Positions 46,767 to 57,203 of a DNA stretch of 64,000 nt are shown here, one piece after another. Every line of letters starts with the position of its first letter. Within the stretch, counting starts at the first letter, position 1. Made by a program: the position numbers and the translations under genes. The stretch lies in NCBI RefSeq assembly GCF_001485575.1, contig NZ_BCNB01000006.1, positions 1,240,001-1,304,000 of the forward strand. The letters run 5' to 3'. The stretch is from Haloarcula sp. CBA1127 (lineage in GTDB: Archaea > Halobacteriota > Halobacteria > Halobacteriales > Haloarculaceae). The notes beneath the pieces are model-generated. The model did not search any database and was not told the origin of the DNA. It saw only the letters and a list, made by a program, of their open reading frames with translations.

Positions 46767-48290
46767 TCAGTCCGCCGTCGAGGCTGAGCGGTCCTGTTTC
46801 GTCTCGAGCGGGCTGTCCTCGATGATGTCCCGGGCGGTGTGTTCGCCGCTGATAAGGCACATCGGCATCCCGATGCCAGGCGTCGTGTAGGCCCCAGTGT
46901 AGTAGAGCCCGTCAAGGCCGGCGCGGTGGCCGGGACGGAGCGGCCCGGTCTGGAACAGGGTATGTGCCAGTCCGAGGGCCGTCCCCTGGGGGTCGCCATA
47001 GCGCTCGGCGAACTCGCTGACACACGCAGTCTCTTCGACGACGATGCGGTCGCGAAGGTCAACGCCGGTCTGTTCGGCGAGGTCGTCGAGAACAAACTCC
47101 CGATACTCTTCACGAATGTCGGGACCGTCGTCCAGCCCCGGCGCGATGGGGACGAGGACGACGACGGCGTGGTGGCCGTCGGGAGCGACTGTCTCGTCGG
47201 TCTTCGACGTGACCGAGAGATAGTAGGCAGGGTCGTCGGGCCACGCCGGCCGGTCGAATATCTGCTCGAAGTGGTCGTCCCAGTCCGTCGGCAGGACCAG
47301 CGAGTGGTGGGCCAGCGGGTCCACGTCGCCCTCGACGCCGAGATACAGCATGAACGCTGACGGCGCGTACGTCTGGTCGTCCCAGTGGTCCGGGTCGTGG
47401 TCGCGGGCAGCGGGGTCAAGCAGATTCTGTTCGGTGTAGGCGGGGTTGGCGTTGCTGACCACGACGTCGGAGGCGACGACGCCGTCCTCGGTGGTCAGTT
47501 CGAACGCCCCCGCCTCGCCGGCGATGTGCTGGACCTCGGTCCCGGTCTGAATGTCGACGCCGAGCTCCCGAGCCAGCGACCCGAGGCCGTCGACGACGCC
47601 GGCGATGCCGCCTTCGGGGTAGAACACGTTCATGTTCAGGTCGACGTGGCTCATGATGCTGTACAGCGCGGGAGTGTTGTGTGGCGCGCCGCCCAGAAAC
47701 ACCAGCGTGTATTCGAGTAACTGCCGGAGCTTCGGGTGGTTGATGTAGCGGCTGACGTAGTCGTCCATCGAGCCGAACAGTCGGGCCCGCGGCGCAAGCG
47801 GGAGCAGGTCGGTGTCGACGTAGTCACGCAGCCGTTCGCGGCCCTCGTAGACGACCCGGTCCATCGCGAGGTCGTAGTTCTGCTCAGCCGTGTCGAGGTA
47901 GTCGACCAGCGCGTCGCCGGCCCCGTCCTCGTAGGATTCGAACACCTCGTACGCGTTCTCGCGGTTTGGCCGCATCGTCACACGGTCGCCGTCCTTCCAG
48001 AACACCCGGTACTGGGGGTCCAACCGTTCCAGTTCGTAGTAGTCTGCGGGCTCGCGGTCGAAGTGCCCGAAGAAGCGCTCGAACACGTCGGGCATCAGGT
48101 ACCATGACGGACCGGTGTCGAACCGGAAGCCGTCGCGTTCAAGGACGCCCGCGTGGCCGCCGAGGCGGTCGTGGCGTTCGAGCAATTGCACGTCGGCCCC
48201 GGCGTCGGCCAGATAGCACGCAGCCGAGAGGCCGCCGAAGCCGCCGCCGATGACGGTCACCGTCCGGTCGCTTGGGAGGCCATCACGCAT
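46767..48290 (-). CDS. Phytoene desaturase-type flavoprotein (CrtI family)
   Basis: A 507-residue CrtI-like enzyme: FAD motif VIGGGFGGLSAACYL (about 13-27), ERHDRLGGHAG, FDTGPSWYLMP and the C-terminal GLYYTGAYTTPGIGMPMCLISGE. It acts in carotenoid desaturation, the route to lycopene and bacterioruberin. Which step (phytoene desaturation or 3,4-desaturation, CrtD-like) cannot be settled here. It faces the Brp/Blh-like gene across 149 bp. Confidence 0.85.
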   Translation of the reverse strand: MRDGLPSDRTVTVIGGGFGGLSAACYLADAGADVQLLERHDRLGGHAGVLERDGFRFDTGPSWYLMPDVFERFFGHFDREPADYYELERLDPQYRVFWKDGDRVTMRPNRENAYEVFESYEDGAGDALVDYLDTAEQNYDLAMDRVVYEGRERLRDYVDTDLLPLAPRARLFGSMDDYVSRYINHPKLRQLLEYTLVFLGGAPHNTPALYSIMSHVDLNMNVFYPEGGIAGVVDGLGSLARELGVDIQTGTEVQHIAGEAGAFELTTEDGVVASDVVVSNANPAYTEQNLLDPAARDHDPDHWDDQTYAPSAFMLYLGVEGDVDPLAHHSLVLPTDWDDHFEQIFDRPAWPDDPAYYLSVTSKTDETVAPDGHHAVVVLVPIAPGLDDGPDIREEYREFVLDDLAEQTGVDLRDRIVVEETACVSEFAERYGDPQGTALGLAHTLFQTGPLRPGHRAGLDGLYYTGAYTTPGIGMPMCLISGEHTARDIIEDSPLETKQDRSASTAD

Positions 48291-48408
48291 AGCAGCCGCT
48301 AGCGACTATGATTGAAAAAGGGTTCCTCGGATTCCCAGCGCTTCACAACGGATATCTCATCATTCAAAACAGCGGTCTGTTCCCAGTCTGCTGGAATCCA
48401 TTGCATCG

Positions 48409-48414
48409 TTTATT
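48409..48414 (+). promoter_or_regulatory. TATA-like box of the Brp/Blh-like gene
   Basis: TTTATT lies 26-31 bp before the ATG at 48440, giving a leaderless start. Confidence 0.45.
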
Positions 48415-48439
48415 GTGAGTATTTCCCTAGGCTCGCGAT

Positions 48440-49504
48440 ATGCCTACGACCGGCCTGGGGTCCGTCTGGCAGCGGCATCGGGACACCGACCGCCATCCGT
48501 CGCTCTTGCTTTCGCGGGCGAGCCTGCTAGTACTCGCTGTCACATTCGGTCTCCTCGGCGCTGCCGAAGTCAGAGTTCCGCTCCGGGCCCAGATGGTGGT
48601 GTACCTCGTCGGGATGGTTGCGCTCAATCTCCCCCACGGCGGGTACGAACACTTCGAGAATCTCCGCCGCCGTCGCCCCTCGTTCCGCTGGCGCTACGTC
48701 GCTGTGTATCTGACCGCTATCGGCGGGTTCGTCGGCCTGTTCCTCGCCGCGCCGGTCGCCGGCCTCGCGCTGGCGCTGACCGTCGCTATGGCGAAGGGTG
48801 GCCTCGGCGGCCTGCAGGTGCTGGAGGCCACGAGCGGCACTGCTCATTTGCAGACCCGGTTCCAGCGTGGTCTGGCGGCGGCTGTCCGCGGCGGTGCGGT
48901 GATGCTCGTCCCAATCGTGTTCTGGCCGCAGACGTTCCACGCGTTTAGTTCGCTGATGGTCGGCCTCGTCGAACCGGGCGCACTCTCGTCGTACGCAGGC
49001 TCGTTCGACACGACTCGGCTCGTCATCGGGTCGGGCTACGGGCTCGCCCTGACGGCGCATATCGTGCTGGGATACGTGCGCGGCGGCGGCCGCTCCTGGC
49101 TCGTCGATGCCGGAGAATCGTTGCTCCTTGCGGTATTCTTCGCGTCTGTCCCGGTCCTCGTCGCCGTTGGCCTGTACTTCCCGTTCTGGTACTCCGCCCG
49201 ACAGGTGGCGCGGACGGCGTCCGTCGAGACGGAGCCGGTCGGCGACGAGCGCTGGGACCTGCTCGGCGGCGCGGACCCCTCGACCGTTGCACTCCGCGCC
49301 TGGGTCGTCCTCATCGTCGGAGCGTTGGCCACCTTCGGCGTCCTCGTCGCCGTCTACTGGGCGTTCCCGAACCCGCTTGGAACGAGTGACCTGCTCCCCG
49401 GCGCGGTAGCGTTCTGGAGTATGTTTATCAGCATCGTTGCGCTCCCACACATCGTCGTCGGGTCACTTCTCGACCGGGACCGGGGTATCTGGTACGTGCC
49501 GTGA
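48440..49504 (+). CDS. Brp/Blh-like membrane protein lacking two metal-ligand histidines
   Basis: A 354-residue protein with about nine hydrophobic segments. It has Brp/Blh family blocks: LPHGGYEH (His66, His71), GTAHLQTRF (His136), the RGGAVMLVPIVFWP helix, LYFPFWYSARQVAR and ALPHIVVG. Brp/Blh proteins cleave beta-carotene to retinal using iron held by four histidines. The WHxxRH pair reads WYSARQ here (Tyr251, Gln255), so two ligands are missing and activity is doubtful. It may use another carotenoid or be non-catalytic. It is divergent from crtI. Confidence 0.75.
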   Translation: MPTTGLGSVWQRHRDTDRHPSLLLSRASLLVLAVTFGLLGAAEVRVPLRAQMVVYLVGMVALNLPHGGYEHFENLRRRRPSFRWRYVAVYLTAIGGFVGLFLAAPVAGLALALTVAMAKGGLGGLQVLEATSGTAHLQTRFQRGLAAAVRGGAVMLVPIVFWPQTFHAFSSLMVGLVEPGALSSYAGSFDTTRLVIGSGYGLALTAHIVLGYVRGGGRSWLVDAGESLLLAVFFASVPVLVAVGLYFPFWYSARQVARTASVETEPVGDERWDLLGGADPSTVALRAWVVLIVGALATFGVLVAVYWAFPNPLGTSDLLPGAVAFWSMFISIVALPHIVVGSLLDRDRGIWYVP

Positions 49505-52214: not shown

Positions 52215-53804
52215 TCAGCGGTACGCGGCGCGAACAGTGTCTGCGATGACACCGGGCTCTCGGTAGTGCTTGCTCACCGGGGGCACCTCCTGGTCGAGGT
52301 CGAGCATCTCGTAGACGGCGGTCATCGCCGACCGGACGGAGTACTCGACGGTGAACACGACGTCCCGTGGCTGTTCGGCGTACTGCCCGAGGAACGCCAG
52401 GTTGTTCGACCCGTCTGGAACGACCTCGGGCCGGTCACCGGGTTCCCGGGGCTGGAAGTGCGCCGTGATGAACGGCATCATCGCCGGGATGCAGGTCACG
52501 TCGTCGAGTATCTCCGGGAGCCGTCCCTCGCACTGCAGGTGGTAACACAGCTCCTGAAGGATCTCGCGGCCGGTACATTCGGACATCGGTTTCTCCACGT
52601 AGTTCCCTTCCCGATCCGGGAACAGCGCGTAGCCCCAGAATACCTTCACGTCGTCCGGCTGGTTCGCGAAGTGTGGCTGGGCGGCGACGACTGTCGACAA
52701 CAGCCAGTTCGACCCGAGGTAGGTGACGAGCCCGTTGCCCGGTTCCTCGTTGGTGAAATCGACGATGTGGTCGAACAGCTCGGTGTTGTGCAGAGTCACG
52801 GTGAACGACTCCCATTTCGTCTCCGTGACGTTGTCAGCGAACACCGACGGATTGCCGAACTGTGGGTTGTCCTCGGCGATGGACTTCCACAGCTCCCACG
52901 ACGCCCCGGTTTCGTTCAGTTCGGGGGCCTCGTCCATCCCGCCGATGGACGAGCCGTCGGTCATCGACCCGTTCGTCATGAACACGAGGTCGGACGGCTC
53001 GACGGGGACCGTCTCGGTTCCGCTGTCGGTCTCACAGTAGAGCCGCTCGACGGTACGCCCTGTCCGCGACGGGACGATGTCCATATCGGTCACCTCGTGG
53101 CCGTACTCGAAGGAGACGCCCCTGTCTTCGAGCCAGCGTCGGAGCGGGAGGATCATCGAGTCGTACTGGTTGTACTTCGTCCGGTCGATACCCTCCATGG
53201 TGTGCAGGCGCGGGAACTCGTGGAGGAACCGGTACATATAGCGCCGGACCTCGGCGACGCTGTGCCACGGCTGGAACGCGAAGATGGTCGCCCAGACGTA
53301 CCAGAAGTTCGTCTCCAGGAACGACTCGTCGAACCACTCCTCGATGCGCGTGTCTCCGAGTCGCGGTTCGGGCGTGAGGAGCAACCGAACTATCGACTGC
53401 CGGTGCTGACGCGTCAGTCCGTACTCGCCGGCGTCGATTCGTTCGCCCTCGTGCATTAGCCGTGTTTTCGCGTACGAGGGGTGCGCTTCGTTGAACTCGT
53501 CCATCACGGCTTTGACCGAGCGCGAATCGTCTTCGAGCGACGGAATCGTCTCGAAGAGGTCCCACGTACATTCGTACGCCGGGTAATTGAACATCCGACC
53601 GCCCCGGATCAGGTACGCCTCGTCCGGGTCGCCAGCGCCGTCCATCGCGCCACCGACGACGTCCAGCTTTTCGTAGACATGGATGTTTTCGCCGGGCATA
53701 TTGCCGTCCCGGACGAGGAACGCCGCGCCAGCCAGGGAGGCAATACCGCCCCCGACGAAGTGTGCTTCGCGGTCAGTGACGTGTGGTTGCTGGTGGATGG
53801 TCAT
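52215..53804 (-). CDS. Oleate hydratase (fatty acid double-bond hydratase)
   Basis: A 529-residue protein of the myosin-cross-reactive antigen / oleate hydratase family. The FAD motif is VGGGIASLAGAAFLVRDG (about 17-34), followed by GGRMFNYPAYECTWDLF, FAFQPWHSVAEVRRYMYRF and NNLAFLGQYAEQPRDVVFTVEYSVRSA, all family hallmarks. It adds water to cis-9 double bonds of fatty acids. Archaea have ether lipids, so the substrate is probably exogenous fatty acids; this is inference. A regulator gene lies 120 bp upstream on the same strand. Confidence 0.93.
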   Translation of the reverse strand: MTIHQQPHVTDREAHFVGGGIASLAGAAFLVRDGNMPGENIHVYEKLDVVGGAMDGAGDPDEAYLIRGGRMFNYPAYECTWDLFETIPSLEDDSRSVKAVMDEFNEAHPSYAKTRLMHEGERIDAGEYGLTRQHRQSIVRLLLTPEPRLGDTRIEEWFDESFLETNFWYVWATIFAFQPWHSVAEVRRYMYRFLHEFPRLHTMEGIDRTKYNQYDSMILPLRRWLEDRGVSFEYGHEVTDMDIVPSRTGRTVERLYCETDSGTETVPVEPSDLVFMTNGSMTDGSSIGGMDEAPELNETGASWELWKSIAEDNPQFGNPSVFADNVTETKWESFTVTLHNTELFDHIVDFTNEEPGNGLVTYLGSNWLLSTVVAAQPHFANQPDDVKVFWGYALFPDREGNYVEKPMSECTGREILQELCYHLQCEGRLPEILDDVTCIPAMMPFITAHFQPREPGDRPEVVPDGSNNLAFLGQYAEQPRDVVFTVEYSVRSAMTAVYEMLDLDQEVPPVSKHYREPGVIADTVRAAYR

Positions 53805-53923: not shown

Positions 53924-54568
53924 TCACTGTTCGGAGCTGGCAATCGTGTGGTCGATCAACTGGTCCGTGCCACGACGGAGGCGCTCCGAAATCGCGGACG
54001 TGGTCGCGTCGAGCTCCGCTGAAAGGTCTGTCAGGTCTGCCCCACGGGGGACGGCGAAATATCCCAGTCGATGGGCTGCCAGCAGCGCCTCTCGCTGCGG
54101 AGCGGTGAGTCCGTAGTCGTCGCCGCCGTGTTCTGTCTCACAGAGCCGGTGCGGGCGGAACGTGACACTGCTTGACTGACAGGTGTCCCGGAACGCTTCG
54201 AGGTCTGCCCGGTCGGCGAACTGCGTGCTCACCTTCCACCCGTGCTCGGTCACGAGCGCACCCATCGGATACGTCTGCCGGTCGACGAGCTGGGTGTACA
54301 TTTCGACGAAGTCTGTATCGAGGACGACCCGATACCGGGACTCGACGATAGCCGAGTCCATGGCGACGAACTCCACGACCGATTCGTCGCCGAGCAATGC
54401 CGATTCAAGAGCGTCCGGCTCGACGCCCGTCGCGGAGAACACGAGTGCCGGCTCGTCGGTCGTGCCGGAGACGACGTTGTCGACGATTAGTCGGGTGTTC
54501 AGTTCGGCAGCAACCGCACACAGCGGCATATCTGCGGACTGCAACTCGAATTCACAGATGACGCTCAT
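53924..54568 (-). CDS. Bacterio-opsin activator-type (HTH-10) regulator, upstream of oleate hydratase
   Basis: A 214-residue HTH-10 family regulator. The N-terminal ~155 residues are the variable sensor domain (SVICEFELQSADMPLCAVA...). The C-terminus has GLTAPQREALLAAHRLGYFAVP and DLSAELDATTSAISERLRRG as the DNA-binding part. It shares the arrangement of the gene at 3709. It is transcribed towards the oleate hydratase gene, with a TATA-like TTATAAATT in the gap, so it is a candidate controller of that gene. Confidence 0.85.
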   Translation of the reverse strand: MSVICEFELQSADMPLCAVAAELNTRLIVDNVVSGTTDEPALVFSATGVEPDALESALLGDESVVEFVAMDSAIVESRYRVVLDTDFVEMYTQLVDRQTYPMGALVTEHGWKVSTQFADRADLEAFRDTCQSSSVTFRPHRLCETEHGGDDYGLTAPQREALLAAHRLGYFAVPRGADLTDLSAELDATTSAISERLRRGTDQLIDHTIASSEQ

Positions 54569-54770
54569 GTGTGTTGCTCAGCCGAACAAAATAAAGGCAT
54601 ACTGGTGATTCTCACGCGCCGAAACCGACCGGCGAGGTCGGGTCAGCGTTGCGGCCGACATATGTAGCAAAGCGCACCCGCGTCACGACCAACACACGTA
54701 GCGAACCGGTACCGGAAACTGTGTGTACAGGACCGCTCCGAGCGGCAGCCGGTGGCTGCTCCGGTGTCGA

Positions 54771-57203
54771 TCAGCGGTCTCGGGATCGCTGGCTCTCGTC
54801 GACAGCGACGTCAAACTCGGACAGTAGCGTCTTGAGCTGTTCGGCCTGTCCGCTCAGCGACTTGATGCTGTCGTTAATCTCCGACATCGAGGCCGCCTGC
54901 TCCTCTGCGGCGGCGGACACGCTCTGTACCTCATCGGCAGTGGATTCACTGAGGTCAGCGACCTCCTCGGTCATCGACACCGCTTCTTCAGTGCTGGCGG
55001 CCTGGTCGTCGGTGGTGTCGCTGATCCCCTGAACGCCGGCGTCCGTCTTGTCGGCGTACTCAGATACTTCTGTGAACGCCGCCATGACTTCTTCGACCGC
55101 ATCGATTCCTTCCTCCATCGATTCCTCAGCCACTCTGGCTTCGTCGACAGTTGTCTCCGTCTGTGACTGTACGTCTGTGATGAGTTGCTCGATCTCGGTC
55201 GCGGATGCCTGCGTTTCCCCGGCGAGTTCCTTGACCTCGTCGGCCACGACGGCAAACCCTTCGCCGTCTTTGTCGGCACGGGCAGCTTCGATGTTCGCGT
55301 TCAGCGCGAGCATATTCGTTTGCTCGGCGATATCAGCGATCAGCTCAACGATGGTGCTGATTTCCGCCATTTGCTCGTCTAACTGTTCAACGTTCTCGAC
55401 AGTCGTGTCGATTGCCTCCTGTACCCTGCGCGAACTTTCGAGCGCGTCTCTGGCCGTGTCCTCGCCTTCTCGGGCGACGTCAGCGGTCTGATTCGAGTGG
55501 TCCGCAACCGAGTCAGCGGACGCAGCCACTTCTTCGATGGCTGCCGAAAGGTCAGTCATCTCTCCTGAGACTGTGTCCAGCATATCGCGTTGCTCGTCGG
55601 CAGCAGCCGCAATTTCTTGAACAGATTCGCTGACCTCGCCGCTCGCACGCTCGGCGTCAGCCGCCCCAACTTCAGCCTCCTCGCTCGCAGCTGTGACGGT
55701 ATCGGCGAACTCCTGAATGTCGACGATAGTGCGTTCCCACTGTGCGAGCATATCGTTGAACGACGAGGCGATAGCCGCCATCGCCTCGTTGTCGGTCTCG
55801 CTTTCGGGCAGACGCCGGGTCAGGTCGCCGTCTGCACACGCTTCCATCACGTCGCTGTATACCTCTGCTTGCTGTTCGAGTTCCGCTGCAAGCGCTTCAG
55901 CTTCCTCCTTTGCCTGCTCAGCGCGCGCACGCTCTTCCTCCGCTTCCTGCTGAGCGTCTGTTGCTTGCTCACGGGCAGCTTCGGTTTCGTCGATTTTCGA
56001 GACGAGTGCATCGCGCATACTCCCGATAGACGTGAACAGCTGGCCGATCTCATCTCGGCGAGAGCTTGAAACGTCAACATTGTACTCGCCCTGCTCAATG
56101 GCGGTCGCGGCCGCGGAGAGTTGCTGTACGGATGTCGCCGTATTCCGTCCAATCGTTCCACCGATGACGACCACACCACCGAGCGCGACCAGGATGAACG
56201 CCAGGATATCAGTCCTGATCTGCTCGCTCAGTGCGAACGCGTTCGCCGCAGGTGTGTGCTTGATAACGACCCAGTTTGTTCCGGGGATGGTCGCGTACGC
56301 GGCGACATAGTCAGTGTCAAGCACTGCTTCCTTTGCTGGGGTATTGGTAAAGGTCCCCTGTTCAGTAGCTGTACTGATCTCGGGGATATCGGCCTGTGAC
56401 TGATTTGGGATGTACGGCTGCCCGACAGCATCGGTACCGGCGTCGGAGAACAACACTTCAGTCGAACTTGAGGTCGGACGGACAACCTGCGTGAACGTCC
56501 CATCGATGCCAGCGCTGAACTGCTTGCTCAGGTCGCTGGCGTCGTACTCGACCACGAGTACGTGGGTGAAATCGGCGGCAACACTCATCGAACTGACCAC
56601 CCGCTTCCCGTTTGTGTTCGTGTACGGGTTGGATGAAACCACTGTGTCGCGGCCGATGGACCGTGTTCGGTCGACCCACGGATGGTTGTCTGATGTGACG
56701 CGGGTTCCACGGAGCGTCTCGTCAGTACTCGCCACAACCCTTGCCTCCCCCGCTGTGCCGACGGTGGGGTCTGCAAGGTGGACAGCAACGACGCGGTCGG
56801 ACTGTAGCTCGTCTGTGGCCAGTCTTTCCATGTAGGCCTGCTGGTCTTCGCGCGTCGTGTTGAAACCGAGCAGCGGATTGTTTGACGCGACAAGCACCGG
56901 CCGCTCGTTCCGCTCAACCCACTCGTTCAGCAGGCCAGACTCGGCGTTGACCTCCTGCTCAAGCTGTTGTGCTGTGTCGTCTTCGAGTGTGGCGGTTGCG
57001 TTCCCCTGCACCCAGAATCCGCCGGCCGCGATGAGTACCACAATTACGAGCAACGCAACAGCGAACTTGACGATGTACGACTGAAGTGGCAGTAACGCAA
57101 TGGCTTTCGCTCGCTCCAGCCCTGTCGTGTCCGAGGCCGCTGACTCTGTCGCGTCTGCTGATTCGTCGTCACCGTCGCCTGAATGTGTTGTAGGTTCGTC
57201 CAT
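54771..57203 (-). CDS. Taxis transducer paired with a compatible-solute binding protein (CosT/Htr5 type)
   Basis: An 810-residue methyl-accepting transducer. It has an acidic N-tail, TM1 (about 44-64), an extracellular Cache-like sensor (65-330), TM2 (332-352), a HAMP region, coiled coils, and a signalling domain with the hairpin block [40 protein letters not shown] split over two turns. In Halobacterium salinarum the CosT transducer works with lipoprotein CosB to sense compatible solutes. Here the binding-protein gene lies 6 bp upstream in the same operon, so the same system is likely. Confidence 0.85.

Follow-up and report, generated by a model that had tools for sequence, protein, structure and literature searches.

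Known members of the Brp/Blh family

In haloarchaea, the formation of retinal for light-driven rhodopsins has been linked to two related genes, brp and blh. In Halobacterium salinarum, brp lies in a bop-brz-brp-bat locus (PMC2253796), and the same paper reports a rise in beta-carotene and a fall in retinal when brp is deleted. Halobacterium brp expressed in beta-carotene-producing Escherichia coli yielded 0.8 mg/L retinal at 24 h, with none in the no-gene control; the values for blh and marine Blh in the same assay were 2.2 and 1.4, respectively (PMC3160355). S. ruber Brp, which was apparently not translated, gave no retinoid in E. coli (PMC7698207).

In the marine protein MaBlh, which is a dimer, changing any one of four histidines (His21, His78, His188 or His192) to alanine left less than 5% of activity (PMC9227343). 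H. salinarum has a canonical Blh (L112), encoded after crtY. The primer published for the cloning of blh begins at an internal methionine of this protein (MPHG) and would drop the N-terminal part; retinal was nevertheless reported.

In Haloarcula japonica, a "brp homolog c1158" sits beside the bifunctional desaturase D1086; passages of PMC11946383 assign this cluster to retinal synthesis by homology and do not mention lost histidines. A literature search, limited in coverage, likewise found no report of histidines missing from Brp. Brp and Blh have been described as not clearly distinguishable (PMC7734400), and databases call Brp a beta-carotene 15,15'-dioxygenase through the same profile as Blh.

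A brp gene divergent from crtI in Haloarcula

The stretch of DNA analyzed here, referred to as the window, comprises 64,000 nucleotides of Haloarcula sp. CBA1127 (contig NZ_BCNB01000006.1, positions 1,240,001 to 1,304,000). The ORF at 48440..49504 on the forward strand encodes 354 amino acids. The protein matches the Brp/Blh profile (BCD, PF15461) over its full length, at 249.8 bits (cut-off 28; profile positions 1-267 of 267), and TIGR03753 at 236 bits (cut-off 95.25), confirming a sequence-only reading that had placed an ORF with these coordinates in the Brp/Blh family. It is predicted to be an all-helical membrane protein.

Within the family, the window protein falls in the Brp clade, being monophyletic with H. 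salinarum Brp and sharing its signature of Lys119, Tyr251 and Gln255. This clade contains the founding Brp of the H. salinarum brz-brp-bat locus, so we assign the window gene as brp. The H. salinarum protein is about 56-58% identical; in strain DSM 3754 (L080), whose sequence is matched by the brp cloning primers of PMC3160355, the gene is preceded by Brz (NF041795, 115 bits) and followed by Bat. The Haloarcula gene differs in being paired with crtI, and no bop lies within the window among the matches listed. The window crtI is an exact match to the d1086 primers printed in PMC11946383, which makes the window brp the orthologue of c1158. In the Ha. japonica sequence (L053), crtI is also divergent from brp, and Brp is 96% identical. 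The genome that contains the window additionally encodes a canonical Blh (L001) beside crtY, whose gene follows genes for a phytoene/squalene-synthase-family protein and a lycopene cyclase.

As the sequence-only reading had proposed, a carotenoid desaturase gene adjoins brp and brp appears to have its own promoter. The desaturase gene, crtI/crtD, encodes a bifunctional phytoene desaturase/3,4-desaturase (CrtID; 46767..48290, reverse strand; NF058655, 719 bits) orthologous to Ha. japonica D1086, and is separated from the divergent brp by 149 bp (48291..48439). A TATA-like element, TCGTTTATTGTGAG (48406..48419, forward strand), lies ~25-30 bp upstream of the start codon of brp, an arrangement that suggests a leaderless transcript; its TCGTTTAT block is conserved in 13 Haloarcula sequences. 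A second conserved block, reading TGAAAAAGGGTT on the forward strand (48313..48324), is a candidate promoter element for crtI on the reverse strand.

Three of the four histidines are missing

The MaBlh ligand positions were transferred by residue spacing and alignment. The first two ligands are 57 residues apart and the last two are 4 apart, both in MaBlh numbering and in L001, where the equivalents are His59, His116, His250 and His254. The corresponding residues of the window protein are His66 (48635..48637), Lys119 (48794..48796), Tyr251 (49190..49192) and Gln255 (49202..49204), all on the forward strand. Hence, the window protein lacks the four-histidine set of catalytic Blh: three of the four mutagenized histidines are absent, and His66 alone is retained.

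The sequence-only reading had correctly recognized the LPHGGYEH block, which holds His66, and the WYSARQ segment with Tyr251 and Gln255, but it counted two missing ligands where there are three. The third loss is at the MaBlh His78 position. The family block that holds this histidine, FHWGQGD, aligns without gaps to AKGGLGG of the window protein (AKGG replacing FHWG), and His78 therefore corresponds to Lys119. The reading had instead taken GTAH as a family ligand block; we rejected this candidate, as the counterpart of GTAH in Blh is DADH, a variable segment. Two other positions stand out. Glu70 (48647..48649, forward strand) is Asp in all Blh aligned, and His337, in the LPH motif (49448..49450, forward strand), is the sole histidine invariant across all Brp and Blh examined.

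The substitutions mark one clade

Orthologues share the Tyr/Gln pair, a point that the sequence-only reading had left for checking, and the histidines are not restored in the Brp sequences compared. Lys119, Tyr251 and Glu70 are each present in all 86 Brp sequences and Gln255 in 85 of them, whereas all 53 haloarchaeal Blh have Asp at position 70 and His at 119, 251 and 255, as well as at the equivalent of His66. Intermediates between the two residue sets are absent among these sequences. Brp is monophyletic in FastTree analyses, with SH support of 0.991, or 0.996 after removal of the ten diagnostic columns. On this comparison, the missing histidines are the mark of one clade, neither chance nor a local defect, and the Lys/Tyr/Gln signature cleanly separates Brp from Blh in haloarchaea. 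The window gene is a typical brp; the unusual feature is an entire Brp clade without the histidines regarded as catalytic in Blh.

Position 66 is less constant within Brp. Natronomonas-type Brp have Tyr, and one further Brp (L170) has Gln, so some Brp carry none of the four ligands. Outside Brp, the eleven bacterial members aligned all keep His337 and the equivalents of His21, His78 and His188. Position 255 varies among them, and MaBlh His192 is therefore not universal in the family. In a survey of Bacteroidota, seven members (L246, L247 and L249-L253) keep His at 66, 119, 251 and 337 and have Asn, Ser or Gly at 255. A deep Brp-like side branch (L182 to L185), with LYHGGFE and LKAG motifs, is encoded beside crtI, and the genomes concerned have Blh as well; one of its members, L184, has Gly at 255. 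No relatives were found in viral contigs scanned with a Blh-first alignment.

Predicted fold

The AlphaFold2 model of Brp is all-helical (mean pLDDT 91.8), with nearly the same helices as the model of Blh (pLDDT 94.0), a layout that would be common to the Blh of marine 66A03, H. salinarum and L001. In the Brp model, positions 66, 119, 251 and 337 each belong to a separate helix, and position 255 is on the helix of 251. CCD-type carotenoid oxygenases such as BCO1 and RPE65 share the reaction, and BCO1 has a four-His iron, but these enzymes are seven-bladed beta-propellers. The Brp and Blh models, by contrast, are all-helical. Sequence and fold searches of the PDB returned no relative, with neither model matching at E<=0.001.

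Linkage to crtI, bop and bat

Of 61 assessable brp loci, 50 have crtI no more than 2.5 kb from brp, and in 42 the distance is at most 250 bp. The two genes occur in all three orientations, are also paired in bacteria (Salinibacter, Salinivenus), and stay together where every other neighbor differs. A bat-like gene is near brp in 20 of the 61 loci, and at least 19 of the surveyed genomes have a divergent bop next to brp. In one cluster (L070), the order is bop-brp-crtI-bat. Two loci contain both relatives, with crtY and blh positioned divergently beside brp and crtI (L105, 3842-8537; L188, 4277-8978).

Co-occurrence with rhodopsin and with Blh

We surveyed 392 Halobacteria genomes, of which 273 have a rhodopsin gene, 119 do not, and 91 have Brp. 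All 91 Brp genomes encode a rhodopsin (hypergeometric 2e-17 relative to 273/392 overall, with kinship ignored), and Brp was found in none of the 119 rhodopsin-negative genomes. A second Brp/Blh family member is present in 90 of the 91 Brp genomes of this survey, and in 37 of 37 named genomes; Brp is therefore rarely the sole candidate for retinal formation. Conversely, roughly 130 genomes have a family member without Brp.

The one Brp-only genome, G011, is a small haloarchaeal genome (98% complete, ~120 contigs, such that a missed Blh is possible). It has a rhodopsin-brp-bat cluster (L187/L170), and its Brp has Gln66, Lys119, Tyr251 and Gln255, i.e., none of the four ligands.

How might Brp supply retinal?

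We consider it probable that Haloarcula Brp comes from an old bop-brp-crtI-bat module for retinal supply and cleaves beta-carotene to retinal with a rebuilt active site. Brp would share the fold of the membrane protein Blh, with Lys119, Tyr251 and Gln255 in place of three Blh histidines and with His337, Glu70 and, in most cases, His66 retained. Its role would be that of the retinal source of the rhodopsin regulon, beside a general Blh encoded by crtY-blh. Orthology, fixed substitutions, constraint, linkage and rhodopsin co-occurrence all favor a retinal-forming Brp, as do the lower retinal and higher beta-carotene of the H. salinarum brp deletion (PMC2253796) and G011, a rhodopsin genome whose only family member found is a Brp lacking all four ligands. 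The sequence-only reading held that a protein with these replacements should be inactive. This is contradicted by orthology, because Halobacterium brp, with the same Lys, Tyr and Gln, yielded retinal in beta-carotene-producing E. coli, in one report that concerns the orthologue rather than the window protein (PMC3160355). Against a retinal-forming Brp stand the absence of three of the four residues essential in marine Blh (PMC9227343), the near-constant second family member, and the S. ruber Brp that gave no retinoid, apparently untranslated (PMC7698207). As to what takes the place of the iron site, we suggest only tentatively that Brp cleaves beta-carotene without the Blh histidine site, with the invariant Glu70, Lys119, Tyr251 and His337 providing either another metal site or the basis of a metal-free mechanism. 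If so, Brp would represent a second chemistry for retinal within one membrane-protein family.

The main rival view is that Brp, although a sister of Blh, is not catalytic. Its inherited cavity would accommodate beta-carotene or retinal, and Brp would increase the retinal supply either as a partner of Blh or by passing retinal on to the opsin; Lys119 could then prevent a metal from binding or form a Schiff base with retinal. Three mutagenized ligands replaced by clade-fixed residues, the near-obligate presence of a second family member, the loci in which crtY-blh adjoins brp-crtI, and the dimeric state of MaBlh (PMC9227343) are all consistent with such a role. We nevertheless regard it as rather unlikely, given that brp alone gave retinal in E. 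coli (PMC3160355) and that one rhodopsin genome has Brp only. Either the histidine-iron model of the Brp/Blh family is not general, or the founding retinal gene encodes no enzyme. Also against a non-catalytic Brp, H. salinarum deprived of blh but not of brp reportedly kept normal bacteriorhodopsin in liquid, which was missing only in the double mutant; the original deletion paper is reported to have found retinal abolished only by loss of both brp and blh. A role with the adjacent CrtI/CrtD on bacterioruberin precursors instead of beta-carotene, which the sequence-only reading had suggested, draws on the tight linkage to a desaturase that takes part in bacterioruberin synthesis (PMC11946383). 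Such a role is very unlikely and we rejected it, since Brp is confined to rhodopsin genomes and is tied to bop, bat and crtI, with many brp loci lying inside bop/bat clusters; the brp deletion, with more beta-carotene and less retinal (PMC2253796), also argues against it. Ligand loss might further be read as the decay of a duplicated Blh into a non-functional remnant, but this is extremely improbable and we rejected pseudogene decay as contradicted by constraint. Within Haloarcula, purifying selection is equal on Brp and Blh (omega 0.106 versus 0.109), so that brp is maintained, as the sequence-only reading had stated; reading frames are intact in the Haloarcula orthologues, many positions are clade-invariant, and the model is confident (mean pLDDT as above).

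Other features of brp neighborhoods

In Halapricum sp. CBA1109, the crtI beside brp is apparently in two pieces (L075, 4643-6084), reflecting a frameshift or an assembly error. Within the window, an oleate hydratase gene (52215-53804, reverse strand; PF06100, 697 bits; NF010584) lies near brp, a proximity seen in the genus Haloarcula only. Further along, at 53924-57203 on the reverse strand, a Bat-like HTH protein adjoins a halobacterial-type methyl-accepting transducer, both named by eye from the sequence.
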